Of a stretch of 64,000 nucleotides of DNA, positions 175 through 15,999 are shown in pieces. Where the stretch lies: positions 2,542,001 through 2,606,000 of the forward strand of contig NZ_CADDWH010000001.1 of assembly GCF_902809865.1 (NCBI RefSeq). Direction: 5' to 3'. Numbering within the stretch: position 1 is the first letter of the stretch; every line of letters starts with the position of its first letter. This DNA comes from Halobacillus sp. Marseille-Q1614. Lineage in GTDB: Bacteria; Bacillota; Bacilli; Bacillales; Halobacillaceae. The notes beneath the pieces were generated by a model. The model saw only the letters and a program-made list of their open reading frames with translations, had not been told where the DNA came from and made no database searches. The position numbers and the translations under genes were made by a program.

Positions 175-202
175 AAATATATTTTGTATGGGAGGAAGCC
201 AA

Positions 203-991
203 ATGACAGATGAACATAAGGACTTTCGAGGGTATGAATGTATCAAGAGTTCCCGTATCAGTCAATGTGAAAATAAATCATTTAAACCACAGGTGAGTAT
301 TGGAAAGATTACGACAAAGGTTCCAGTGGTATTAGCTGAACTTCAATTACAATTAAACATTAATGAGACGATTACCTTCCCTGAGCCCGTTTTAGAAATC
401 AAAGATATTAAAAAAAGAGTAAATTTAACTCAATGCCGCCTATTGCTTCCAACCAAAAAATTATTTATAAAAGGATTTGTCCGCAAAAACATCCAATATG
501 CCAGCCCGTCTCATGAAATTGCACCAAGCACAGAGAAATCCGTCGCCTCTGATATTCATTCTTTCACTGTGGATATCCCCTTTGATTGTGTAACGGAAAT
601 TAAAGATTTCTTATCCATGCCTGTCATGCCTAAAATAAACAAGCGGGAAGAATTTGATTTTGCAGTATCTAAATCCTTACCATCAGGGTTTCCGGAAAAA
701 GATGAATTGCTAACGAGTGACCTTTCTCAGTTTCACCAGGAAAGCAGCCAATTTTATAACGAGCTTCCTTTTTGTGAACTGCTTTCCAGCAAAATCATCG
801 AATGGGATGAAGCGTTGGATCGAGTCCCTCTTCCTGGAACTTCCCCATTTAACGAAGGATACTTTACAAAAGTAGAAGAAAAAATGGTAGTAGATATTTG
901 TCTCAAAGTGCTGCAGAACCAACAAATACGCGTAGCTTCTTCTTGTAATGACGACTGTGATTATAAACATGATTTTGAGTCTTGTGATTAA
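203..991 (+). CDS. SPOCS/DUF3794-like putative spore-surface protein
   Basis: A 262-aa protein without signal peptide. The start ATG at 203 is preferred over the ATG at 188 because the GGGAGG ribosome-binding site lies between them. The core has a beta-strand pattern 'VPVVLAEL', then 'NLTQCRLL', 'LFIKGFVRKNIQYA' and, after a loop, 'FTVDIPFD'. This G-V-x3-I-x-Y...PF pattern is what I associate with the SPOCS (DUF3794) domain of SipL and Clostridium/Bacillus spore-coat proteins. It matches the convergent gene at 2837-3631 in the same motif order, including 'CKLL/CELL' and a shared C-terminal 'FNEGYFTKVEEKM'-like block. An outer spore-layer structural role is inferred; the family match comes from motif recognition only. 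Confidence 0.6.
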   Translation: MTDEHKDFRGYECIKSSRISQCENKSFKPQVSIGKITTKVPVVLAELQLQLNINETITFPEPVLEIKDIKKRVNLTQCRLLLPTKKLFIKGFVRKNIQYASPSHEIAPSTEKSVASDIHSFTVDIPFDCVTEIKDFLSMPVMPKINKREEFDFAVSKSLPSGFPEKDELLTSDLSQFHQESSQFYNELPFCELLSSKIIEWDEALDRVPLPGTSPFNEGYFTKVEEKMVVDICLKVLQNQQIRVASSCNDDCDYKHDFESCD

Positions 992-2836: not shown

Positions 2837-3631
2837 TTACTGTCCGATAATTTTTCTGAATTTGCTATAAACATTTTGAGAATTTTGGGTATTTGCATAG
2901 TATGAGTCTCCACAAAGATCATCATCGTTAGGTGGTGGTGTTGGTGGATCAAAATTAGGTTGTTGTTTCTGAGTCAGCTTAATAACTAGGTTGATATCCA
3001 TTTTTTCAGTAACTTTGTTAAAACGGCCCCAGTTGTCAAAGTTCTTCACAATATCCCACTGATTTACTGCAGAAGCAAGAAGCTTGCACTTGATCGGTTC
3101 ATTATTAATTTCGAATGTTAAAGAACCAAATTCGCAGCGATCGGCTCCCATACCGTCTTTTGCTAATTCTCTGCGTTGAAGTACATTGTCTTTTACACTA
3201 TATTCAAAATCAAACGGAAAATCTACTGGATTCGCAAGTTCTACTTGATCATAAGCTTTAAATGGAATATCAATGCTATAATCTTTCACAACTCCGTAAG
3301 CGTTTTCCACGTATTGAATATTTTTGTGGACAATCCCTTCTACAAATAGTTTTACATAGTTTGGATTATCTACGACAGGGATTGCTTTGCATTGTGTTAA
3401 GGACACATTCTTCTCAATGTTTTTAATAGCCCTGGCATATGTCGGCAGATAAAAGTCTGCTTCTGTAAGAGATTGGATCAGCACATCTCCAAGGACGACC
3501 GTGATTTCCTGATCGTCAGCATTAGCAAACTGCTCTGACGCAGTAAACAAACTTCTTGATTTTGCCTTATCATTAGGTGGCAGTGCAGGGCATTTTTTGT
3601 GACCATATCCACAGCCTGTGTTTTTCTTCAT
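2837..3631 (-). CDS. SPOCS/DUF3794-like putative spore-surface protein
   Basis: A 264-aa protein. ATG at 3631 is chosen over the in-frame GTG at 3640 because AAGGAG sits eight bases before the ATG and overlaps the GTG. Motifs follow the 203-991 protein: 'VVLGDVLIQSL', 'VSLTQCKAIPV', 'LFVEGIVHKNIQYV', 'YSIDIPFKAYDQVEL', 'IKCKLLASAVNQWD' and 'FNKVTEKMDINLVIKL'. The C-terminus is proline-rich, then Asp-rich, then Gln/Asn-rich, a tail common in spore outer-layer proteins. It has no signal peptide. It is likely a paralog of the 203-991 gene; a spore coat or exosporium role is inferred from family and context. Confidence 0.6.
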   Translation of the reverse strand: MKKNTGCGYGHKKCPALPPNDKAKSRSLFTASEQFANADDQEITVVLGDVLIQSLTEADFYLPTYARAIKNIEKNVSLTQCKAIPVVDNPNYVKLFVEGIVHKNIQYVENAYGVVKDYSIDIPFKAYDQVELANPVDFPFDFEYSVKDNVLQRRELAKDGMGADRCEFGSLTFEINNEPIKCKLLASAVNQWDIVKNFDNWGRFNKVTEKMDINLVIKLTQKQQPNFDPPTPPPNDDDLCGDSYYANTQNSQNVYSKFRKIIGQ

Positions 3632-3865
3632 ATTGTTCACTCCTTAAAAAATTTTTGTCAAAAGCTATAATCGGACTTCTAGTTTCTTTTGACTCATTAG
3701 TAATATATGTAGAGGATATTAAATTGGAATGGACGTGTGTCGCTAGGTTTATAAACCTATTATTTACAGGTTTTTCCGGAGCTTACAAAAGGTCTCCGAT
3801 AAGCTGTATTCCTATCGGGTTATAGCACACCCTAATTTAAAATATTGATAGAGCAGCCTAGTAAA

Positions 3866-4128: not shown

Positions 4129-5193
4129 TTATGAGAACCATTTGTGCCACATATGATCATTTCTTCCTCTTACAAAACAGTCAATCCGATTCCTGCCCCA
4201 TGATACGGCTCCAGGCGAACTTCGGACTCCTCCACGCGGTGCCCCTAAGTCTTCCCAGCCTCTCCACCTTGATCCATCCCACCACTTATGCCACATTTGA
4301 TTGTTACTGCCTCGGACAAAGCAATCTAAGCGATTGCGATCCCACGAAGCCACAGCCGGCGCTCCATCAAAACCACCGCTTGGTGACCCAAGATCCTCCC
4401 AGTTACTCCAGCGAGAGCCATCCCACCATTTATGCCACATGCGGTCATTTCTGCCTTTTACAAAGCAATCGATACGGTTCGGCCCCCACGATACAGCTCC
4501 AGGTGAACTTCGGACTCCTCCGCGCGGAGCACCAAGATTTTCCCATTGACTCCATCGGGAACCATCCCACCATTTATGCCATAAATTATTGTCATCGCCT
4601 TGTACAAAACAATCTAAGCGATTCGACTGCCACGAAGCTGCAGCTGGAGCTCCTTCAAAACCGCCAGGCGGTGCTCCAAGGTCCTCCCAATTGCTCCATC
4701 GGGAACCATTCCACCATTTGTGCCACATTTGATCATTTCTACCACGAACAAAACAGTCAATCCGGTTCGCCCCCCACGATACAGCCCCCGGGGCACTGCG
4801 GACCCCTCCTCTAGGCGCACCGAGGTCTTCCCAGTCATGCCATCTCGATCCATCCCACCACTTATGCCACATTCGGTTATTATTGCCATGAACAAAACAG
4901 TCCAGCCTGTTGGATTGCCACGAAGCTACAGACGGTGCCCCTCTAAAGCCTCCAGGCGGTGCTCCAAGATCTTCCCACTGTTTCCAGCTGGCCCGCGATT
5001 GATCACTCTCTAAATTTTGTTCTGTCGGAAAGTAATGCGGTTGTGGCGGATAGTAATATGGCTGACGATAAGGGTCGGGGCTGCCCGTGGCAGCAGGATA
5101 CCCATAAAATCCATAGTTTTCGTAAAAAGGCAGCCCATTCCTGTTGTGATTAGCAAAATAGGGATTATCCGGATGACCATAATAATACATCAT
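4129..5193 (-). CDS. PLL-type six-blade beta-propeller lectin-like protein
   Basis: A 354-aa protein. A Tyr/Pro/Asn-rich N-terminus (about 1-65) without signal peptide precedes six tandem repeats of about 48 residues. Each has the order W-x2-W-E-D/N-L-G-x-P-x-G-G, S-W-x2-N-R-x-D-C-F-V, and M/L-W-H-K-W-W. This is the pattern of the PLL fucose-binding lectin family (seven-bladed propellers). Repeats alternate between a 'GGF..AP' type and a 'GGVRS.P' type, so the array is three copies of a two-blade unit. The N-terminal 'W..WEDLG' strand could close the last blade. Start supported by AAAGGAGGTG. A carbohydrate-binding role on the spore or cell surface is inferred from family and neighbours. Confidence 0.75.
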   Translation of the reverse strand: MMYYYGHPDNPYFANHNRNGLPFYENYGFYGYPAATGSPDPYRQPYYYPPQPHYFPTEQNLESDQSRASWKQWEDLGAPPGGFRGAPSVASWQSNRLDCFVHGNNNRMWHKWWDGSRWHDWEDLGAPRGGVRSAPGAVSWGANRIDCFVRGRNDQMWHKWWNGSRWSNWEDLGAPPGGFEGAPAAASWQSNRLDCFVQGDDNNLWHKWWDGSRWSQWENLGAPRGGVRSSPGAVSWGPNRIDCFVKGRNDRMWHKWWDGSRWSNWEDLGSPSGGFDGAPAVASWDRNRLDCFVRGSNNQMWHKWWDGSRWRGWEDLGAPRGGVRSSPGAVSWGRNRIDCFVRGRNDHMWHKWFS

Positions 5194-5292: not shown

Positions 5293-5895
5293 TTATTCCT
5301 CTACTTTTAATCTAGTAAGTTCTTTCTGCAAAGACTCTATTTCTTTTTCTAACTGATGAATAATTTGCAAGCCTTCCGCTGCTTTTTGGTTATAAGTATT
5401 TATTTCCGTTTCTAACCTTGTCGCTAACTCGTGTTTCATTAGATTATCCTTCTCTATAAAAAGTTCTCTCTCTTCCTTCAACCTTACTATTTCTTCTTTT
5501 AACTGTTCGATTTCATTCTGTAATTCTTGTTCTTTGTTTGATGAATGGATGATTTTCTCTTCTAACTCTTTTCTTTCTTCTGAGTACTGCATAATCGTAT
5601 TTTCTAAACTCTCATTTTTATCTTTTAAAGTTTCTACAGCAGCTTGCAGCTTTTCATTTTGAAAAGTAATTTCCTCGTATTGACTTTTAGCCGCGTCTAA
5701 CTCATTTTGAAGGGATGTTCTGCTGTCTTCCAGAACTCTAATCTGTTCTATATTTTTCTCCAGCTCTGCTTGCGACTGTTCCCATTCTCTATGAAATTGA
5801 GTTTCTTCTATTATATTGTTCGCTTGGCCTTTATTTTCTAACTGTTCTTGATGAATAGTCCTTTTTCCGGAAGGAAAATTCGTTCTTTTCTTCAC
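5293..5895 (-). CDS. Coiled-coil protein of unknown function
   Basis: A 200-aa protein with GTG start at 5895 behind AAGGGGAGG. After about 35 polar residues the rest is one long, highly charged heptad-pattern coiled coil rich in Glu, Lys, Leu and Gln. There is no signal peptide, membrane segment or catalytic motif. It lies 25 bases after the 5921-7102 gene and about 100 bases before the lectin gene, all leftward, so it is probably co-transcribed with putative spore-surface genes. A scaffold or spacer role is a guess. Confidence 0.55.
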   Translation of the reverse strand: MKKRTNFPSGKRTIHQEQLENKGQANNIIEETQFHREWEQSQAELEKNIEQIRVLEDSRTSLQNELDAAKSQYEEITFQNEKLQAAVETLKDKNESLENTIMQYSEERKELEEKIIHSSNKEQELQNEIEQLKEEIVRLKEERELFIEKDNLMKHELATRLETEINTYNQKAAEGLQIIHQLEKEIESLQKELTRLKVEE

Positions 5896-5920: not shown

Positions 5921-7102
5921 CTATTTCGGAGGAAACTTTACACTGATCTTATTATTCGAGCTGAACTTTACCTTATCTCCATTAAAGTATACATATCCAT
6001 AAATGTTTACATCCTGTCCTGCTTCCGGCTGTTTAATAACAAATTGAAGATTATCCAGTGATAAGTGCTGCCTGCCGGGAATCATCATCCGCTGGATTGG
6101 CCCTATCCAGTACTCTCCCTTTTCTGAAGCGATTTCCAGCCAGTCTTTATTTAGAAATTTCCACCCTTTGGCACCTTCCTCTGATTGAACACCGAGACCA
6201 TCTACCAGGTCAGGGGGAAGAATCTGTCCTTTTACTTCCAGGCAGCCTGCTGGTTCTACCTTCAAACAAATAACGGGATTATACAAAGGAGTGCTGCTCG
6301 TGTTTTTTATTGCCAGCTTTCCATGAGTCATAAGACGATCTTTCTTTTCGCTGAAGAAGATCGTGTAATCAAAAAATACTTCCGCTGTTGGCAGCTGCTT
6401 TTCGACTGTACTTTTTTGGATGGAAACTGGATGGTTATTGGATTGACTTTTAGGAGAAGGGGGCGTAGTTGAAGTTTTATTTTTAGACGGTGAAAATGAT
6501 GATGCTTTTGTAAATAAATCAAGTGTTCCTAAAGGTAAGCAAGACAGCATCGATTGATTCCCTTTATTAAAATACCTCATTATGGCAGAAACAACATGTA
6601 AGGAAAGGTTCTCAATCCTTGATTGAGCTGATTTTTCCGGGATTACACAGTTGATTTCTAGAACTGGGAATCCCCAATCTTTTGTTGTTTTAATAAATTC
6701 ATATTCGAACTCACTGTTTTTTAACTCCTTATATAAACCTAACTTTAAGCTCTGCAGATTCTGATGTAAGTTATGAGTGATTTTAACTCTTGGCTTGATG
6801 TTTTCCGGTGAGCTTTGACGAAGCGAGAACTTTACCGTTAAATCAACATCTTTCTCAACGTTCTCCTCCAAAACAGTTATCCCGCAATTAGAAAGAAATT
6901 CCTTCATTTGTTTTAAAAAATCTTCTTCACCACTTAAGGCCAGGTTTATAGAAGATAAAGCTGGTTTTAACTTGAGTTCTTTCTTTTCGTTTTTCCAATA
7001 CGTGATGAACCCTTGCTGCTCACAAAACAACCGAAATGCGGCTAAAGAAGCAAAAGGGATCTCCCCTATTTTCTTTTCCTGATGAAAAACAGAAATGTTC
7101 AC
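5921..7102 (-). CDS. Two-domain hypothetical protein, spore-island gene
   Basis: A 393-aa protein with GTG start at 7102 and GGGAGG seven bases upstream. Residues 1-205 form a globular domain. Its stretch 'FPVLEINCVIP...IENLSLHVVSAIMRYF' faintly recalls the C-terminal part of amidase_3 folds, but the zinc-ligand motifs are not visible, so I do not call it an enzyme. A Ser/Pro/Thr linker (about 205-235) leads to a beta-rich domain (about 240-390, 'GKLAIKNTSSTPLYNPVICLKV') that looks like an immunoglobulin-like or DUF11-type fold. No signal peptide. It is divergent to the 7309 paralog gene and first of a leftward run with the coiled-coil and lectin genes. Confidence 0.45.
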   Translation of the reverse strand: MNISVFHQEKKIGEIPFASLAAFRLFCEQQGFITYWKNEKKELKLKPALSSINLALSGEEDFLKQMKEFLSNCGITVLEENVEKDVDLTVKFSLRQSSPENIKPRVKITHNLHQNLQSLKLGLYKELKNSEFEYEFIKTTKDWGFPVLEINCVIPEKSAQSRIENLSLHVVSAIMRYFNKGNQSMLSCLPLGTLDLFTKASSFSPSKNKTSTTPPSPKSQSNNHPVSIQKSTVEKQLPTAEVFFDYTIFFSEKKDRLMTHGKLAIKNTSSTPLYNPVICLKVEPAGCLEVKGQILPPDLVDGLGVQSEEGAKGWKFLNKDWLEIASEKGEYWIGPIQRMMIPGRQHLSLDNLQFVIKQPEAGQDVNIYGYVYFNGDKVKFSSNNKISVKFPPK

Positions 7103-7221: not shown

Positions 7222-7269
7222 CTAAAAACAGGCGAAAACCCCCGTTGCCAAAGTCTTTATAGTTAATAA
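7222..7269 (+). promoter_or_regulatory. Conserved upstream block, copy 1
   Basis: This 48-bp segment matches 8666-8713 at 42 of 48 positions and holds ACAGGC, ACCCCCGTTGC and AGTTAATAA. Both copies end about 40 bases before the start codon of a paralog (7309 and 8757). The flanking sequence is less similar, which suggests a retained promoter or regulator site. Confidence 0.5.
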
Positions 7270-7308: not shown

Positions 7309-8415
7309 ATGAAAAGAATCAAGTCCATTAAAGGTGCTCAAATTCCACCACTTACCCCAAACAGCTTGATGCCTGAATGCATTCGCACACAAAAAGTGTA
7401 TGACTGGATCACAGATGTTAACCAGTACACCAACAAAACTCCTCTTCCAGGAGATCCAGCTGATCCCGCCACTTGCGCTGGATTAGTAGCCGCTGCCCTT
7501 GCAGCCGGAGACGACATTACGTTTGAGTGTACTCCGCCGGAAGTTCCCGGCCCAGATGCCACATGTGATGTGTTAGAAGTAACGAACGGAATGCCGGGTA
7601 TGATCCGCGTATTGTGGACAGTTTTTGTCACGGTGACAGTCACGAATGAAACAACAGGGGAAACGTGTGAGTTTGACGTACCCGTTCAATTTGATGATGT
7701 TTACATGGTATGTATCCCAGAGCCATTTGATGAAACCAATGTTTTCTGCCGCATCACAGCTGTACGGTGCAGCGTGACCAACATGGTTTTCCTTGGCAAC
7801 CAAGTGCAGGTAAGCGTTACCGTTTGTAAAGATATCCAAATCGAAGAAGAAGTGAAACTGGAAGTATTGGCGAAGTTCTGCCAGCCGCGTCCGAACGATA
7901 TGCTTCCAGAGCCGCCAGCTCCAGAAGAATGCCCAGGATTCGAGTTCCCGCCACAATGTAACTTCTTCCCGCGTCCTAACTGTGACTGTCAGGCAGAAGC
8001 AGCTGTTGATGTTACCGTTACAGAACCTAACGGAGGAGGAGGAACAAGACATCAACTAGATGCATTGATTTGTGATAACTGTACGTTATCTCAAAGTACT
8101 TGGAGTTATACACGTACTACTGATGCAGGCACAACAACTGTTACTCCTATAACAATTGAAAGTGTAACTTGTGAACAATTAGCGTTGCCTGGATCAATTA
8201 GAATGACTGTCACTGGCCGAGCGAATGTAAGTGGAGATGCAGGAAATCAAACAAACGTTAACTACACTCTTTTATTAGATGAGAGTGCTGTTGGTTCTGA
8301 TGCCTTTGACCTAACTGCTGGAACATTTGTCACAGGTGCAGTCACTATACCCGATGACGAGCTTCTCGTTCAAGACTGCTTAACATTCGATGATATTGAT
8401 TTTGATACGCCATAA
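7309..8415 (+). CDS. Cys-containing spore-surface paralog A (SPOCS-like)
   Basis: A 368-aa protein, first of four tandem relatives. No signal peptide. Order of features: a short 'KSIKGAQIPPLTP' N-terminus, 'PECIRTQKVYDWI', 'CEVLEV'-type strand, 'NGMPGMIRVLWTVFVTVTV', 'CEFDVPVQFDDVYMVCIPEP', 'VTVCKDIQIEEEVKLEVLAKFC', a Pro-rich 'PNCDCQA' linker near residue 225, then a second domain beginning 'LDALICDNCTLSQSTW' and ending 'QDCLTFDDIDFDTP'. The first domain has the strand, then D/E-P-V/I-F pattern of SPOCS/DUF3794 proteins. Many cysteines suggest disulfide cross-linking. Spore outer-layer role inferred. Confidence 0.6.
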   Translation: MKRIKSIKGAQIPPLTPNSLMPECIRTQKVYDWITDVNQYTNKTPLPGDPADPATCAGLVAAALAAGDDITFECTPPEVPGPDATCDVLEVTNGMPGMIRVLWTVFVTVTVTNETTGETCEFDVPVQFDDVYMVCIPEPFDETNVFCRITAVRCSVTNMVFLGNQVQVSVTVCKDIQIEEEVKLEVLAKFCQPRPNDMLPEPPAPEECPGFEFPPQCNFFPRPNCDCQAEAAVDVTVTEPNGGGGTRHQLDALICDNCTLSQSTWSYTRTTDAGTTTVTPITIESVTCEQLALPGSIRMTVTGRANVSGDAGNQTNVNYTLLLDESAVGSDAFDLTAGTFVTGAVTIPDDELLVQDCLTFDDIDFDTP

Positions 8416-8421
8416 AAGATG

Positions 8422-8456
8422 AAAATAGGGGAAGTCAGCCTTCCCCTATTTTTTTA
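8422..8456 (+). terminator. Rho-independent terminator
   Basis: A 12-bp stem (AAATAGGGGAAG / CTTCCCCTATTT) followed by a run of T. It ends the unit of paralog A. The rest of the gap 8416-8756 holds only the conserved block before paralog B. Confidence 0.9.
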
Positions 8457-8665
8457 TAGGCATATTTCAGAATTAAAACCTAAAATAGGATGACCAAAGT
8501 AACCACCTTACTTTGATATTGATTATCTAACCGTACTGCTTCAAATAAGAGTCCCATCCGTGCTTGGATAGTAAAACCTCTTATATAAAACCTCCTGACT
8601 TTCTACCTTAATGTTATAGGCTCTCAATCCATGACAAATAGCTTTCTAATTTGTTTACGTACCTT

Positions 8666-8713
8666 CTAAAAACAGGCTAACACCCCCGTTGCGAAAGCCT
8701 TTCCAGTTAATAA
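8666..8713 (+). promoter_or_regulatory. Conserved upstream block, copy 2
   Basis: A 42/48 match to 7222-7269, placed at the same distance from the 8757 start codon. No standard sigma-A boxes are evident in the block, which fits sporulation-type control but does not prove it. Confidence 0.5.
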
Positions 8714-8756
8714 AATAATAGTGTTAATAATATTTTAAGAAAGGTAGATTGATTGT

Positions 8757-9854
8757 ATGAAAAAGTTTAAGTCAATCAAAGGTGCTCAAATTCCACCACT
8801 TACTCCAAACGACTTAATGCCCGAATGCATTCGTACACAAAAAGTGTATGACTGGATTACAGATGTTAACCAGTACACCAACAAAACACCGATCCCTGGA
8901 GATCCAGATGATCCAGCAACTTGCGCTGGATTAGTAGCCGCTGCCCTTGCAGCTGGAGACGACCTTACGTTTGAGTGTACACCGCCGGAAGTTCCCGGCC
9001 CAGATGCCACATGTGATGTGTTAGAGGTAACGAACGGAATGCCGGGTATGATCCGCGTATTGTGGACAGTTTTTGTCACGGTTACGGTCACGAACGAAAC
9101 AACAGGAGAAACTTGCGAGTTTGACGTACCTGTTCAATTTGATGATGTTTACATGGTTTGTATCCCAGAGCCATTCGATGAGGATAACGTGTTCTGCCGC
9201 ATCACGGCTGTACGATGCAGTGTCACAAACGCTGTTTTCCTTGGCAACCAGGTCCAAGTCAGTGTAACGGTATGTAAAGACATCCAAATCGAAGAAGAAG
9301 TGAAACTGGAAGTGTTGGCGAAATTCTGTCAGCCGCGTCCGAACGATATTCTTCCAGAGCCGCCAGCTCCAGAAGAATGCCCAGGATTCGAGTTCCCACC
9401 ACAATGTAACTTCTTCCCGCGTCCAAACTGTGACTGTCAGGCAGAAGCGTTTATCAATAATACGGATGGAAGTACAGGGTTCAATTATGTATTAGACGCT
9501 CTTATCTGTGACAACTGTACGTTATCTCAAAGTACTTGGAGTTACACACAGACGGCTCCAGGCGGCGGCGTTACAACGGTAACACCGAGAACGATTGCTA
9601 ATGTTGCATGTAACGCTATAGAAGGCCTTGGTCTCCGTATGGTAGTTACAGGTACAGCGGATGTAAGCGGTGCAGCCGGTGACTTTACGAACGTAAACTA
9701 CACACTTTCGTTCATTGAAACTACTGGTGCAGCAGACGATCTTTTCAACTTAATTGCAGGACCTATTACCACTGGAGACGTCACTGTACCAGATGGCCAG
9801 CTTATTGTTCAAGACTGCTTAACGTTCGATGATATTCCGTTTGACACACCATAA
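8757..9854 (+). CDS. Cys-containing spore-surface paralog B (SPOCS-like)
   Basis: A 365-aa protein, nearly identical to paralog A over the first 225 or so residues, including long blocks of identical DNA. The C-terminal domain (about 230-365) keeps only the frame 'LDALICDNCTLSQSTWSYT', 'NVNYTLS' and 'VQDCLTFDDI' while the rest has diverged. A conserved core with a variable tail suggests recent tandem duplication, with gene conversion over the core or diversifying selection on the exposed tail. No signal peptide or catalytic motif. Own terminator at each end, so probably its own transcript. Confidence 0.6.
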   Translation: MKKFKSIKGAQIPPLTPNDLMPECIRTQKVYDWITDVNQYTNKTPIPGDPDDPATCAGLVAAALAAGDDLTFECTPPEVPGPDATCDVLEVTNGMPGMIRVLWTVFVTVTVTNETTGETCEFDVPVQFDDVYMVCIPEPFDEDNVFCRITAVRCSVTNAVFLGNQVQVSVTVCKDIQIEEEVKLEVLAKFCQPRPNDILPEPPAPEECPGFEFPPQCNFFPRPNCDCQAEAFINNTDGSTGFNYVLDALICDNCTLSQSTWSYTQTAPGGGVTTVTPRTIANVACNAIEGLGLRMVVTGTADVSGAAGDFTNVNYTLSFIETTGAADDLFNLIAGPITTGDVTVPDGQLIVQDCLTFDDIPFDTP

Positions 9855-9862
9855 AAAATTTT

Positions 9863-9899
9863 AAAAATGGGGGGAGCTATTCTTCTCCCATTTTTTTAT
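9863..9899 (+). terminator. Rho-independent terminator
   Basis: AAAATGGG-type stem with its complement CCCATTTT, then a T-run, directly after paralog B. The stem is slightly asymmetric. Confidence 0.8.
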
Positions 9900-9929
9900 A
9901 AGCAAACATTAAAGAAATGAGGCATGATT

Positions 9930-11777
9930 ATGGGGTGTTTATTGCACCAAGGTAATAATTTTGGAACCCCCGTTTTTCTAGGGGACGATGGTTTTAGTCA
10001 AGTTAACTTTACTCAAGGATTCACCTTTTCCTTCTATGGAGCCAATTATACTAGTTTGTTTGTTAACTCCAATGGAAATTTAACGTTTAACGCAGGTGAT
10101 GGAGACTTTTTTGAAACTATTGCTGATTTTATCAATGATAACAACCCACGAATTGCTGCTTTGTGGGATGATCTCAACCCAAACGGAAATGTCTTCGTTA
10201 AACAATTATCCGACCGTTTTATCGTTACATGGGTAAACGTACCGGAATGGCCTAACACTGGGTCAAATACGTTTCAAATTGTTTTATATGATTCAGGGTC
10301 AATAGGTTTTGGTTATGAAAACCTGGACAGTACAGATGGCTTAGTCGGAGTCGCCAGTGGAAATGGAGGACCTTCCAGTGTGTTCACCTATGACCCGCCT
10401 ACTAATACCAGTCCGGACGATACAGTTACGGGACCTACCGGTTCTCTTGATGATAACAACACGATACTATTTTGGAGTTATAATGGAACAAATTATGAAT
10501 TAGCAGAAGAACCTTGTTTAGATATCAGTTGTTCAAGTGATATCTTTGAAGGTATTAATAGAGGACAATCAGGAAAAGTAATTAATTTTCCTTCCCCAAC
10601 TGTAACACCAGAGGGAACAGTTGTTTCTTGTACGCCATCATCCGGTACCTTTTTCCCTGCCGGTGCAACTGAAGTAGTTTGTAGAGCTGATGGAATTTTT
10701 TCCTGTTCCTTTACAGTTACAATTGTCACTCCAGCAGGTAACAGCCTGCGTCCTGAATGTATTCGCACCCAGAAAGTATATGACTGGATTGCTGATGTGA
10801 ACCAGTACACGAACAAAACGCCTCTTCCAGGAGATCCAGATGACCCAGCCACATGCGCTGGATTAGTAGCCGCTGCCCTTGCAGCCGGAGACAACATTAC
10901 GTTTGAGTGTACTCCGCCGGAAGTTCCCGGCCCAGATGCCACATGTGAGGTGTTAGAAGTAACGAACGGAATGCCAGGTATGATCCGCGTATTGTGGACA
11001 GTATTTGTCACAGTGACCGTTACGAATGAAACAACAGGAGAAACGTGCGAGTTTGACGTACCCGTTCAATTTGATGATGTTTACATGGTATGTATTCCTG
11101 AGCCGTTTGACGAAGATAACGTCTTCTGCCGCATCACAGATGTGCGATGCAGTGTCACTAACACTGTTTTCCTTGGCAACCAGGTTCAAGTCAGTGTAAC
11201 GGTATGTAAAGACATTCAAATCGATGAAGAAGTGAAACTTGAAGTATTGGCGAAATTCTGCCAGCCGCGTCCAAACGATATTCTTCCAGAACCGCCATCT
11301 CCAGAAGAATGCCCTGGTTTTGAGTTCCCGCCTCAGTGTAACTTCTTTCCTCGTCCAAACTGTGACTGTCAGGCAAAAGCCGCTATCGATGATATAAATG
11401 CTGCCGGCTTCCATTATGTACTGGATGCGCTTATTTGTGATAACTGCACATTATCTCAAAGTACTTGGAGCTTTACCCAAACGTCTCCTGCTGGAGAAGT
11501 GTCAACAGTGACACCCAGAACTATTGAAAGTGTAGAATGTATGGAAGTAGAAGGCGGCATTCAGATGACGGTTCAAGGACGTGCCGATATTAGAGGAGCC
11601 GTCGGTGACTTCGACAACGTAACTTATACACTTACCTTTACGGATAGTACGGTAGGTCCGACTACATTTAATTTAGTTACAGGACCTATCTCGACATTTG
11701 ATGTCATTGTATTAGCTAGTCAATTAACCGTCCAAGACTGCTTAACGTTTGATGACATATCATATGACAGACCATAA
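9930..11777 (+). CDS. NIDO-HYR-SPOCS-like fusion, spore-surface paralog C
   Basis: A 615-aa protein. ATG at 9930 is preferred over ATG at 9924 because GAGG lies seven bases before it. Three parts are visible. Residues 1-195 resemble a NIDO (nidogen-like) domain: 'SLFVNSNGNLTF', 'PRIAALWDDLNP', 'FIVTWVNVPEW', 'NTFQIVLYDSGSIGF', 'LVGVASGNG'. Residues about 197-270 resemble a HYR repeat: 'ISCSSDI', 'VVSCTPSSGTFFPAGATEVVC', 'CSFTVTIV'. From about 274 to the end it is a full copy of the paralog A/B protein starting at 'RPECIRTQKVYDWI'. NIDO and HYR are extracellular adhesion-type modules. No signal peptide, so delivery as an adhesive spore-surface component is the simplest inference. Confidence 0.7.
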   Translation: MGCLLHQGNNFGTPVFLGDDGFSQVNFTQGFTFSFYGANYTSLFVNSNGNLTFNAGDGDFFETIADFINDNNPRIAALWDDLNPNGNVFVKQLSDRFIVTWVNVPEWPNTGSNTFQIVLYDSGSIGFGYENLDSTDGLVGVASGNGGPSSVFTYDPPTNTSPDDTVTGPTGSLDDNNTILFWSYNGTNYELAEEPCLDISCSSDIFEGINRGQSGKVINFPSPTVTPEGTVVSCTPSSGTFFPAGATEVVCRADGIFSCSFTVTIVTPAGNSLRPECIRTQKVYDWIADVNQYTNKTPLPGDPDDPATCAGLVAAALAAGDNITFECTPPEVPGPDATCEVLEVTNGMPGMIRVLWTVFVTVTVTNETTGETCEFDVPVQFDDVYMVCIPEPFDEDNVFCRITDVRCSVTNTVFLGNQVQVSVTVCKDIQIDEEVKLEVLAKFCQPRPNDILPEPPSPEECPGFEFPPQCNFFPRPNCDCQAKAAIDDINAAGFHYVLDALICDNCTLSQSTWSFTQTSPAGEVSTVTPRTIESVECMEVEGGIQMTVQGRADIRGAVGDFDNVTYTLTFTDSTVGPTTFNLVTGPISTFDVIVLASQLTVQDCLTFDDISYDRP

Positions 11778-11782
11778 CTAAC

Positions 11783-11808
11783 TAGGGAGAGGAGTTCTTC
11801 TCCCTTTT
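11783..11808 (+). terminator. Short hairpin terminator
   Basis: GGGAG / CTCCC stem followed by TTTT after the paralog C stop codon. Short, so moderate confidence. Confidence 0.55.
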
Positions 11809-11898
11809 ACATATTTAAGGAAATGTACTTGTTAGGCATACACCTTTTTTAAATCGTTGACTATTTTTGAGCTAATTATTTAAGAGAGGTGCTTTAGA

Positions 11899-13014
11899 TT
11901 GCCAATAGATGACCTTACCCCTAATAGTTTAATGCCCGAATGTATACGCGTAACAAAAGTTTATGATTGGATTACTGATATCAACAGTTATGAGAATAAA
12001 ACTTCGATTCCTGAGTTCTCTCAATGCAAGGACCCTTGTGCCTCCAGGGTCAGGGGTGCACTGGAAAAACATCACGATATTCGCGTAGAGTGCAGTACGC
12101 CTGAAGTACCGCCGCCATTCCCGCTTAAAGATTTAAAAAAATTCTCTCATAAGCATGATAAAAAGTGCCCCGACAAATTTGAACGTTTTTCCTGTGAAAT
12201 TATAGAAATAATGAACGGAACCCCTGGGATCATCAGAGTATTATGGACCGTGTTTGTTGAATTAAAGATCTTTGATGATACGGAAGGTAAATTATTATGC
12301 AAATTTGATGTGCCTGTGCAATTTGATGAGGAGTATATGATTTGTATTCCTGAACCTCTAGATGAGAAAAACATAACTTGCCGAATCACGAAAATTTTCT
12401 GTAATCCAACTAACAGAGTTCTGCTTGGAGACTTGGTGCAGCTAAGAGTAACCATCTGTAAAGAAATACAAGTAGAGGCGGAAGTTAAATTAGAAGTACT
12501 GGGTAAATTCTGTCAGCCGCGGCCGAATGATATCCCATTACCTCCTCCTATAGATGAAGTCTGTCCTGCTTTTGAATTTCCGCCACAGTGCCCGAATATA
12601 TTCCCGCGGCCTAACTGTGACTGTCAGGCGGAAGCAATGATTGATGTAACAGTGTCAGAAATCCAACATCAGTTAGAAGCATTAATTTGTGATAATTGTA
12701 CATTATCTCAAAGTAATTGGGTGTACACACAAACCGCTTCAGACGGTACGGTTACTACTGTTACCCCAAGAACCATTGAAAATGTTGAATGTACGGAAAA
12801 CATTAGGATGACTATTACAGGGCGAGCGGATGTAACCGGAGGAACAGGAAACCAGCAGAATGTGCCTTATACTTTAGTGTTTACGGAGGCTGCGCAAGAT
12901 ACGTTCGCTCTAACAGCCGGTACCTTTATAGTAGCTGCAGTCAATGTGCCGGATGCCCAACTAGAAGTTCGTGACTGCCTCACATTTGATGACATTGATT
13001 TTGATACTCCATGA
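11899..13014 (+). CDS. Cys-containing spore-surface paralog D (diverged)
   Basis: A 371-aa protein with TTG start behind GAGAGGTG. It keeps the family layout ('LTPNSLMPECIR', 'KVYDWITDINSYENKT', 'NGTPGIIRVLWTVFVEL', 'CKFDVPVQFDEEYMICIPEP', 'NCDCQAEAMIDVTV', 'DCLTFDDIDFDTP'). It is clearly more diverged than A-C and carries a basic, His/Lys-rich insertion around residues 70-95. The C-terminal tail is closest to paralog A. No signal peptide. Probably the oldest member of the tandem set; function inferred as for the others. Confidence 0.6.
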   Translation: MPIDDLTPNSLMPECIRVTKVYDWITDINSYENKTSIPEFSQCKDPCASRVRGALEKHHDIRVECSTPEVPPPFPLKDLKKFSHKHDKKCPDKFERFSCEIIEIMNGTPGIIRVLWTVFVELKIFDDTEGKLLCKFDVPVQFDEEYMICIPEPLDEKNITCRITKIFCNPTNRVLLGDLVQLRVTICKEIQVEAEVKLEVLGKFCQPRPNDIPLPPPIDEVCPAFEFPPQCPNIFPRPNCDCQAEAMIDVTVSEIQHQLEALICDNCTLSQSNWVYTQTASDGTVTTVTPRTIENVECTENIRMTITGRADVTGGTGNQQNVPYTLVFTEAAQDTFALTAGTFIVAAVNVPDAQLEVRDCLTFDDIDFDTP

Positions 13015-13016
13015 TC

Positions 13017-13038
13017 AAGGGGGGCATTCCCCCTTTTT
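13017..13038 (+). terminator. Rho-independent terminator
   Basis: AAGGGGG / CCCCCTT stem then TTT, immediately after paralog D. Confidence 0.7.
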
Positions 13039-14010: not shown

Positions 14011-14190
14011 ATGACGCCAAAACAAGTGAACGAATTATACCGTCAAGCAAAAAGAGGAAGTCTTTCCCACCACCGCCAAGTTAAATCAATCCGGTTAAAT
14101 AGAGGAAGACGATTAAGCCAAAAACTTGCACCATCAAATACCACCAAAAGCCAAGGGTGCGGATGCGGGAAGAAAAAACTTCGTCCCTAA
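14011..14190 (+). CDS. 59-aa basic protein with Cys-Gly tail
   Basis: ATG at 14011 has an excellent AAAAAGGAGGAA site. The product is strongly basic (many Arg, Lys, His) and ends 'CGCGKKKLRP'. It overlaps the next gene's open frame by 65 bases if that frame starts at 14126. Its placement among spore-surface genes suggests a small coat or core-associated protein; no family recognised. Confidence 0.6.
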   Translation: MTPKQVNELYRQAKRGSLSHHRQVKSIRLNRGRRLSQKLAPSNTTKSQGCGCGKKKLRP

Positions 14191-14596
14191 ATCGCCCTGT
14201 TTTTATATAAAAGAGTCCATCTGGAGAAAGATGATCTCCCATTGTAAGTCAGAGCTGCCTTTAGAAGGCTGCGGTCTTCTTTCAGGTCCTGCACTAGGAT
14301 ACGGAAATAATTGTTGGAAAATGAGAAACCTTGATGCTAGTCCTATTTCTTTTTCTATAGATGATCAGGAGCTGCGAAATACATTCTTGGAAATGGAGCG
14401 TAAAGGCGAAAAACTGACAGGGATTTTTCATTCGCACCCAACAAGCCGTGCTTACCCTTCTCATCAGGATATTAAATACGCTCATTACCCTGCAGCGATT
14501 TATATTATTGTTTCTTTTGCTAAAAAAGGACCAGAAGTTAAAGGGTACAAAATAAAGAATGGCAAGGTAATACCTGTTCAGCTCATCAAATATTAA
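14126..14596 (+). CDS. JAMM/MPN-type metallopeptidase domain protein (JAB1 family)
   Basis: Up to 156 aa. The full JAMM zinc-site signature is present: Glu47 in 'PLEGCGLLSG', His102-x-His104-Pro, Ser112 and Asp115 in 'HSHPTSRAYPSHQD'. Bacterial stand-alone JAMM proteins cleave isopeptide or C-terminal peptide bonds. The start is uncertain: TTG at 14126 lies inside the 59-aa gene and has no good ribosome-binding site, while ATG at 14231 has GGAG but would remove the first strand and part of the first helix. Translational coupling to the upstream ORF is possible. In this locus, processing or cross-link editing of spore-surface proteins is a reasonable guess. Confidence 0.75.
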   Translation: MHHQIPPKAKGADAGRKNFVPKSPCFYIKESIWRKMISHCKSELPLEGCGLLSGPALGYGNNCWKMRNLDASPISFSIDDQELRNTFLEMERKGEKLTGIFHSHPTSRAYPSHQDIKYAHYPAAIYIIVSFAKKGPEVKGYKIKNGKVIPVQLIKY

Positions 14597-14730: not shown

Positions 14731-15999
14731 ATGAATCTGCAAAGGATTGATGGGGATGATCACACTTTATACATAGCCAGGAACTTAAGCTCAAAGTTTT
14801 TAATGACGAAGGTGGAAGTTCATTTTGGAGAGTGTAAGAAGACTTGTTCCATTCGGCAATTGAAGACCCTTCCCACTGATTCAGTTGCTCTTTCTAAAAC
14901 TTTTGCTTACCCTTTCACTCTTCCAGAAAATATCCCTTATGAGCTTAAAATAACAGGAAACACGTTAACCATCGGTCCAATCATTGGTATCATATCCACT
15001 TACAATCGATTTTTCTCCTGGGAAACAGGGAGATTAAATAAGTATGATGAAATTAAAGGTTTGGTGTTCGTCTGTGAGGAAGCGGATGTAGATATAAAAA
15101 AACGTTCGATCAAAGGATATTGGTTTAACCGGCAAAAGAGCACATGGTCAGAAGGGATGTTTCCTTATCCAGATGTTTGGTTTAATCGATATGGAAATTT
15201 AGATAAACATTTAAATCATAGTTTAAGATTAAAAAAGGATCACCATATCATAAATTCTAAAACCATCGATAAATGGGATCAGTATAAGATTATCCAAAAA
15301 ATAAGCAGTGAGCATCCTGTAATGCCCCGTACAGAAAGGTTCTCCATGGAAAATTTAGTAACCATGTTAAGGGAATGTAAGGAGGTCTATTTAAAAGAAA
15401 CAAACAGAGCAGACGGCCATGGGATAATGATGATCAGGATCCAGGAAAAAGGCTTTTTGTTGATTGACCATAAAAATCACAGCACACAATTCACAAGTCT
15501 CCGTCTGTTATATAACCAACTATTGCAGATAGAGAATCTAAATAATTATCTCATTCAGCAATCAGTGGCCTATCGCTTCAACAGCCAAAACCTGGATTTC
15601 CGTATATACCTTCAAAAAAATGAATCACACGAATGGTTCAGTCCCGGATTCTTTTCAAGGGTTTCGAAAAAAGACAGCATCATAACAAACTATAAAAACC
15701 GAGAAAGGATTTCCCCTGGAAATAAAGCTTTAAAACAAATATATAAACTCACTGAATCAGCTGCTAAAGAGAAAGAGAAAGAAATGTTCCAAATAAGCAA
15801 AAAAATTTGTGAAGCTATAGAAAACACCGGTATTCACTTAGGTGATATTGCTGTGGATATTATTCTGGACCAACAACTCCATATTTGGGTATTAGAAGTC
15901 CAAGTCATCTTTGGTATAGAACCAAAGTTATCATTCGTAGACCAGCATTTAACGGGGCCGCTTTATTATGCCAAATCACTTGCCGGCTACACTAAATGA
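14731..15999 (+). CDS. YheC/YheD-family spore-coat-associated ATP-grasp protein
   Basis: A 422-aa protein with GAAGGAAGGTG before the ATG. Layout matches the YheC/YheD family: an N-terminal beta domain (about 1-90), 'GPIIGIIST' near residue 87, 'YPDVWFNRYG' near 145, and an ATP-grasp region from about 190 with 'VYLKETNRADGHGI', 'QQSVAYRFNSQNLDFRIYLQ' and the metal-binding end 'GDIAVDIILDQQLHIWVLEVQV'. In B. subtilis these proteins associate with the spore coat. Substrate unknown. The canonical final Glu-x-Asn of ATP-grasp enzymes reads Glu-Val-Gln here, so activity should not be assumed. Confidence 0.85.
   Translation: MNLQRIDGDDHTLYIARNLSSKFLMTKVEVHFGECKKTCSIRQLKTLPTDSVALSKTFAYPFTLPENIPYELKITGNTLTIGPIIGIISTYNRFFSWETGRLNKYDEIKGLVFVCEEADVDIKKRSIKGYWFNRQKSTWSEGMFPYPDVWFNRYGNLDKHLNHSLRLKKDHHIINSKTIDKWDQYKIIQKISSEHPVMPRTERFSMENLVTMLRECKEVYLKETNRADGHGIMMIRIQEKGFLLIDHKNHSTQFTSLRLLYNQLLQIENLNNYLIQQSVAYRFNSQNLDFRIYLQKNESHEWFSPGFFSRVSKKDSIITNYKNRERISPGNKALKQIYKLTESAAKEKEKEMFQISKKICEAIENTGIHLGDIAVDIILDQQLHIWVLEVQVIFGIEPKLSFVDQHLTGPLYYAKSLAGYTK

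Follow-up and report, generated by a model that had tools for sequence, protein, structure and literature searches.

Four tandem genes of the BMQ_0737 spore-coat family with modular architecture in Halobacillus sp. Marseille-Q1614

What do four adjacent, related genes encode near the beginning of a 64,000-nucleotide stretch of the Halobacillus sp. Marseille-Q1614 genome (contig NZ_CADDWH010000001.1, positions 2,542,001 to 2,606,000; hereafter the window), and how did one part of their products stay so alike while another diverged? Our analysis revealed that these genes, designated A to D, are genuine and form an expanded, modular variant of a spore-coat protein family that has been named (the BMQ_0737 family) but little studied. 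We read their products as paralogous structural proteins of the outer spore layer, assembled in the way set out below, and assign to this reading a probability of roughly 0.72. As the first-pass annotation of the window had stated, the four open reading frames (ORFs) are homologous and neighbours to one another; all lie on the plus strand, and their parts are the following.

7309..8415, plus strand: gene A, 368 residues, core and tail; NCBIfam NF052457 at 90.4 bits (cut-off 71)
7978..8412, plus strand: tail of A (tail alignments A2 and A4)
8757..9854, plus strand: gene B, 365 residues, core and tail; NF052457 at 88.3 bits
9426..9851, plus strand: tail of B (tail alignments)
9924..11777, plus strand: gene C, 617 residues, NIDO/HYR head, core and tail; NF052457 at 86.8 bits, NIDO (PF06119) at E 1.2e-7
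9924..10724, plus strand: extra head of C (NIDO/HYR matches)
11358..11774, plus strand: tail of C (tail alignments)
11899..13014, plus strand: gene D, 371 residues, diverged core carrying some 22 inserted residues, and tail; NF052457 at 99.6 bits
12613..13011, plus strand: tail of D (tail alignments)

The core comprises about 220 residues, with its end near FPRPNCDCQ, and is followed by a more divergent tail, about 140 residues long, with LDALICDNCTLSQS and DCLTFDDI as its frame. The start codon of gene D as listed is TTG; no signal peptide was seen in A-D, judging by eye from N-termini such as MKKFKSIKGAQIPP. The cores of A, B and C share 95-96% of their amino acids, and to these three the earlier description of a nearly unchanged core applies; it does not extend to D, whose core is 60-61% identical to the others. 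At the DNA level the three cores are 89-91% identical, and their third codon positions 72-77%, which is too low for the near-identity in DNA that had been claimed, and the tails, supposed to have kept just a frame, still share 55-66% of their amino acids over the six pairs of A-D. About 270 extra N-terminal residues in C had passed unmentioned.

The family assignment comes from NF052457 (BMQ_0737 family morphogenetic spore coat protein), a curated spore-coat family, the model of which is matched by the core over its whole length in all four genes above the cut-off (86.8-99.6 bits against 71); the earlier view of these proteins as belonging to the spore is thereby supported. Pfam contained no family at cut-off in A, B, D or the core of C. 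Among plasmid records one partial match was found, in Cytobacillus spongiae (38% identity over query residues 1-263). In an alignment of 37 cores (A5: the four of the window, 22 of the 27 listed core pieces, with L054, L063, L065, L067 and L105 omitted, and 11 stand-alone cores) six cysteine positions are kept in 37 of 37 rows. A BMQ_0737-type protein has reportedly been linked, in a 2014 study of Manetsberger, to the integrity of the outermost spore layers. In Bacillus (Priestia) megaterium QM B1551, the source of the family name, a BMQ_0737-GFP fusion was placed with the outer-coat proteins and bound anti-GFP antibodies strongly, from which the authors infer a position among the outermost proteins (PMC4656864).

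The window genes differ from the family as known so far by their tail, by the head of C, by the four-gene array and by their scores, which are 87-100 bits against 202 for the best NF052457 match of the same genome, a core-only ORF of 226 residues on another contig, C2 (69,230 bases). On that contig (L145:408-15999) the core-only gene comes after a JAB-type gene (recognised by eye and through an NCBIfam match under the cut-off) and before an F1-like ORF (by eye; F1 is introduced below); it lies among sugar-synthesis genes, of which PseC was matched above the cut-off (E 2.2e-145) and NeuB below it (E 1.2e-108, 363 bits, cut-off 400). C2 is plasmid-like in size and its gene set resembles a spore-surface glycan cluster. 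Exosporium genes carried on plasmids have been reported for B. megaterium (PMC4674009).

Our reading also draws on a partner gene, F1, which is encoded divergently from gene A.

5921..7102, minus strand: F1 partner protein; no Pfam or NCBIfam match near cut-off

Across 397 genomes of the order, the core was found in 192 and F1 in 193 (F1 presence meaning E up to 1e-5, the weakest of which may in some cases be coiled-coil matches). Of the 195 genomes with at least one of the two, 190 have both, 2 the core alone and 3 F1 alone; another 202 have neither (phi 0.975). As the genomes are related, Fisher or other p-values are not independent evidence, and the fairer count is by genus (n=135): both in 65, core only in 0, F1 only in 2, neither in 68. 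In 53 of the 65 genomes with a core joined to a tail, no more than 4 kb separates the start of the F1 match from the tail match; the distance is 10.9-20.3 kb in 11, and in 1 the F1 match is on another contig. For core-only genomes the corresponding distance, measured to the core match, is at most 2.5 kb in 59 of 60, among the better-scoring matches, which were the ones listed. The F1 cluster is also present in 21 of the 23 loci compared (20 neighbourhoods of relatives, L012, L083 and the window). This co-occurrence of core and F1, adjacent in most genomes checked, is new here. As to the nature of F1, its members gave coiled-coil-type and chance matches only among the best 25 of 49 Pfam families listed, and its profile six helical chains of the PDB at E 0.26 or worse; of the 21 F1 members, 17 were aligned (A6). 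A further unnamed neighbour, F3, 266-342 residues long, is found in ten relatives (L091-L093, L095, L097-L101, L107); its N-terminus is similar to the F1 N-terminus (hhalign probability 83.9%, E 7.8e-6, 95 columns), and its consensus closes with repeated NPFK-type motifs.

CotY, CotZ and ExsY are cysteine-rich assembly proteins of the outer layer, and the core family is like them in combining abundant cysteines with a probable role in outer-layer assembly. The core itself has no Pfam match to their family, PF10612, either in A-D or among the 37 core rows at E up to 0.5. PF10612 was found in 211 of the 397 genomes, and its distribution tends to exclude that of the core: both are present in 53 genomes, the core only in 139, CotZ only in 158 and neither in 47 (phi -0.50), the corresponding numbers by genus (n=135) being 22, 43, 56 and 14 (phi -0.47). 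Most core genera (43 of 65) thus lack CotZ, a pattern that is likewise new here and is a tendency rather than a rule, given that 22 of the 135 genera have both. Of the genomes with core and tail, 21 have CotZ as well and 44 lack it. The genome of the window belongs to those having both, and one of its three CotZ matches (C1:2538851-2539318) lies some 10 kb ahead of A. The gene with core and tail is situated, in about ten relatives, near a gene of the 2'-5' RNA ligase type (L092: PRK13679, E 1.2e-77) with GNAT, esterase and YetF neighbours; these may be the yjcFGH genes found beside the crust genes of B. subtilis.

The tail is a widespread six-cysteine domain that also occurs stand-alone. Its profile matches 77 of the 397 genomes and 33 of the 135 genera; in 65 of the 77 it lies in ORFs of 368-618 residues (618 being C itself), all 65 of these genomes also having a core match, a class that was assigned from ORF length and E-value, with core and tail in one ORF confirmed for the loci read. 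The remaining 12 have the tail just in shorter or weakly matching ORFs. Among 12 regions examined for short ORFs (L071-L082), 11 yielded a tail ORF of 125-252 residues. Six cysteine positions are kept in 34-38 of the 39 rows of alignment A4 (the four tails of the window plus 35 of the 39 that were listed; L073, L079, L084 and L105 were omitted, the last for wrong limits). Two stand-alone tail genes, at L076:1775-3001 and L078:2-1321, are situated beside ATP-grasp-like genes (YheC/D type by eye), as is the array in the window (14731-15999). In a congener the tail stands behind a PF12673 (SPOCS) domain, beside two more SPOCS genes (L084:889-1941, the same as L151:5389-6441), and is therefore common to two families without detectable similarity.

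Ena subunits (DUF3992), with which the tail might be compared, are short, cysteine-rich spore-surface proteins with an N-terminal cysteine motif and a jelly-roll fold that has a disulphide-linked N-terminal connector. A relation of the tail to Ena was sought in the PDB and in Pfam and was not found: the PDB set, which presumably includes the Ena chains, gave, at E up to 10, two unrelated chains only (E 0.41 and 0.61) and none of Ena, the 39 tail rows had no convincing Pfam family and no Ena model, and NCBIfam gave chance-level matches only. Nor is the tail derived from the core, since comparisons of core, tail and F1 with one another and with the CsxC family stayed at hhalign probabilities of 0.1-0.3%. 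The earlier remark that no described system has this composition holds in part: the core family is named and one of its members was studied in B. megaterium, while for the tail, F1 and the array no family was found in Pfam or NCBIfam and no paper in the literature search.

As for the head of C, its NIDO match (E 1.2e-7) is above the Pfam cut-off and its HYR match (E 8.7e-4, 20 bits) just below it (21.7). Other regions are apparently joined to the core elsewhere, as six ORFs of 586-799 residues in the same family of genomes (L085-L090) have weak core matches (E 2.6e-7 to 3.4e-4), of which L086 and L088 alone matched again when phmmer was re-run; by eye these ORFs contain parallel-helix-like repeats and HYR-like or immunoglobulin-like regions, among which the HYR similarity was the one tested, and tblastn with the head of C found similarity to L085, L087 and L038. 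Together with the DUF346 propeller protein of the same island (listed below), such regions could mean that the spore is made to stick to a specific surface by the NIDO/HYR head and this lectin-like neighbour, the tails serving as spacers. We consider this unlikely: A, B and D are without a head, and the NIDO part was matched in 0 of the other 43 genomes searched in the family (the HYR part in 5 of 43).

How the array evolved was judged from substitution patterns and trees. By the Nei-Gojobori method, the ratio of non-synonymous to synonymous substitution rates (dN/dS) is 0.05 for the cores of A, B and C, and 0.11-0.22 for the tails in five of the six pairs, the sixth being saturated, as is the synonymous divergence of core pairs with D. 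The tail is thus less conserved than the core and on average under purifying selection, not diversifying selection; no positive selection on the tails was seen on average, and the earlier description of this module as 'diversifying' is not supported as worded. A comparison with Halobacillus sp. BBL2006 (L012, the one locus that the contig search yielded), which has a B-like and a D-like gene, shows the excess of similarity among the cores: third-position identity is 0.72-0.77 among A, B and C against 0.53 between B and its BBL2006 counterpart, while the tails, at 0.43-0.52 against 0.55, have no such excess. Correspondingly, A, B and C group in the core tree with support 91/91, and the same clade is rejected in the tail tree by the approximately unbiased test (p-AU 1.5e-5). 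The simplest reading is that the cores of A, B and C were homogenised within the genome after the genes had split, the tails remaining untouched, probably through gene conversion, which agrees with the earlier suggestion of upkeep by recent duplication or gene conversion. In BBL2006 the place of gene C, between the B-like and D-like genes, is taken by two repeat-protein ORFs (YVTN-propeller-like by eye; L012:7187-8174). Three genes with core and tail stand in tandem near an F1 gene in a distant relative, G062 (L083:3744-7584), an expansion that looks independent.

A conserved and homogenised core before more divergent tails, with other regions on core-like domains in relatives, is also what an antigenic or phase-variation cassette would look like, in which the core served as recombination anchor and the tails diversified against phages, predators or hosts. 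The dN/dS values of the tails speak against it, as does the rarity of multiple copies: among the matches listed for the 65 genomes with core and tail, more than one long ORF of this type occurs just in the window's genome and in G062. No silent cassettes were seen either, the genome having one further core (that on C2) and four tail matches. We regard such a cassette as highly improbable.

The label SPOCS-like, given earlier to the core, fits two genes 4-7 kb upstream of the array instead.

188..988, plus strand: CsxC-family protein (SPOCS-like); NF045794 at E 2.1e-80, 269.6 bits (cut-off 135)
2840..3640, minus strand: second CsxC-family protein; NF045794 at E 4.8e-48, 163.9 bits (cut-off 135)

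That A-D are a SPOCS/DUF3794 array, with a diverged SPOCS domain as morphogenetic hub, would accord with these neighbours and with the congener tail behind PF12673, but is scarcely credible: the core profile against 30 SPOCS rows (of 33; L128, L130 and L140, from loci too short for the cut used, were dropped) gave an hhalign probability of 0.2% (E 0.26), whereas the positive control, in which three of these rows, from a congener, were compared with the remaining 27, gave 96.4% (E 1.3e-9), and four CsxC-type rows do match SPOCS (73%, E 3e-5), whereas the core does not match CsxC (0.1%, E 0.81). PF12673 (the SPOCS/SipL family) had no Pfam match to A-D at E up to 1 nor among the 37 core rows at E up to 0.5; it had none in the window's own genome and was matched in 1 of 21 genomes searched.

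The expression signals around the array are as follows.

7227..7248, plus strand: upstream motif AACAGGCGAAAACCCCCGTTGC of gene A (whole-genome motif search)
8671..8692, plus strand: upstream motif AACAGGCTAACACCCCCGTTGC of gene B (whole-genome motif search)
8422..8452, no strand assigned: inverted repeat with T-runs between A and B, terminator-like on both strands
13017..13038, plus strand: terminator-like hairpin after D

The 22-nucleotide motif before A and B has these two sites only in the whole genome at up to three mismatches, and its backwards control none. Terminator-like sites are frequent in the region (33 against 10.2 in shuffles); plus-strand hairpins of this kind follow A, B and D, and the genes may therefore be separate transcription units. 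A pattern resembling the sigma-K consensus (AC-N15-18-CATANNNT, ending 20-60 nucleotides before the start) precedes 12 of 41 non-redundant genes with core and tail against 29 of 310 other ORFs (p 9e-4), a conservative contrast, as the 310 include at least three genes with core and tail under a second locus identifier (L091, L096, L099). The pattern precedes 4 of 21 F1 genes. In Markov-shuffled upstream regions it occurs 0.5 times on average. Promoter-like sites of the sigma-70 type are at chance level in the region (30 against 28.7 in shuffles), and the one Rfam match obtained near the genes (L20 leader, 23.4 bits) is below its threshold of 58.7 and was taken as chance.

On the reading that we prefer, that of A-D as structural proteins of the outer spore layer, the mother cell would produce the proteins without a signal peptide. 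The cysteine-rich core of about 220 residues would be the assembly module, docking onto the outermost coat or exosporium layer and cross-linking into it, probably by disulphides and together with F1, with which it may be in physical contact. The six-cysteine tail would be a separate domain borne and displayed on the core, and so would the NIDO/HYR head in C. The shared assembly surface would keep the cores alike, with gene conversion among A, B and C helping, and the carried domains would drift apart.

Several points weigh against this. The assembly role is argued from the family name, the conserved cysteines and the low dN/dS, which some different conserved function might produce as well; the core profile had no match in the PDB and the tail profile no convincing one; and none of A-D has the sigma-K-like site at 20-60 nucleotides before its start. 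Recent re-duplication of core segments would look similar to gene conversion. The test on the core tree is marginal, p-AU being 0.041 when B is forced together with its BBL2006 counterpart and 0.087, not rejected, when C is added to that pair, and the groups tested were named after a first pair of trees had been seen. Finally, the system is patchy: of ten congeners, three have any match to protein B and none has a match with core and tail.

The surroundings of the array contain further genes that may belong to the same setting.

4129..5193, minus strand: DUF346 repeat, beta-propeller lectin-like protein; PF03984 at E 9.4e-15 (5 stretches), NF052348 at E 6.5e-16, 58.3 bits (cut-off 200)
5293..5895, minus strand: coiled-coil protein; its cluster, F11, occurs in 6 of the 23 loci, window included
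14126..14596, plus strand: JAB/MPN metalloprotease-like protein, cluster F7, PF14464 at E 7.3e-20, in 10 of the 23 loci, window included
14731..15999, plus strand: YheC/D ATP-grasp protein, PF14398 at E 1.7e-45

The DUF346 protein has a Tyr/Pro-rich N-terminus, and glycosyltransferase-like clusters, named by sight, were found in 11 and 9 of the 23 loci. Judging by the families to which they are assigned, the CotZ homologue, the CsxC genes and the array constitute a spore-surface gene island.

Beyond the window, we tentatively propose, at somewhat less than even odds, that the order has a second scaffold for the outer coat, made up of the core and F1 as its obligate halves, distinct from SPOCS and CotY/CotZ and replacing the latter in many genera, with the tail, NIDO/HYR and other joined regions as interchangeable display modules. 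The crust and exosporium are known mainly through CotY, CotZ and ExsY, and 139 of the 192 core genomes have no CotZ match. The two-gene unit of core and F1, present in all 65 core genera sampled, is a concrete candidate for what builds the outermost layer there, and the natural fusions of the core suggest how spores could swap surface domains.

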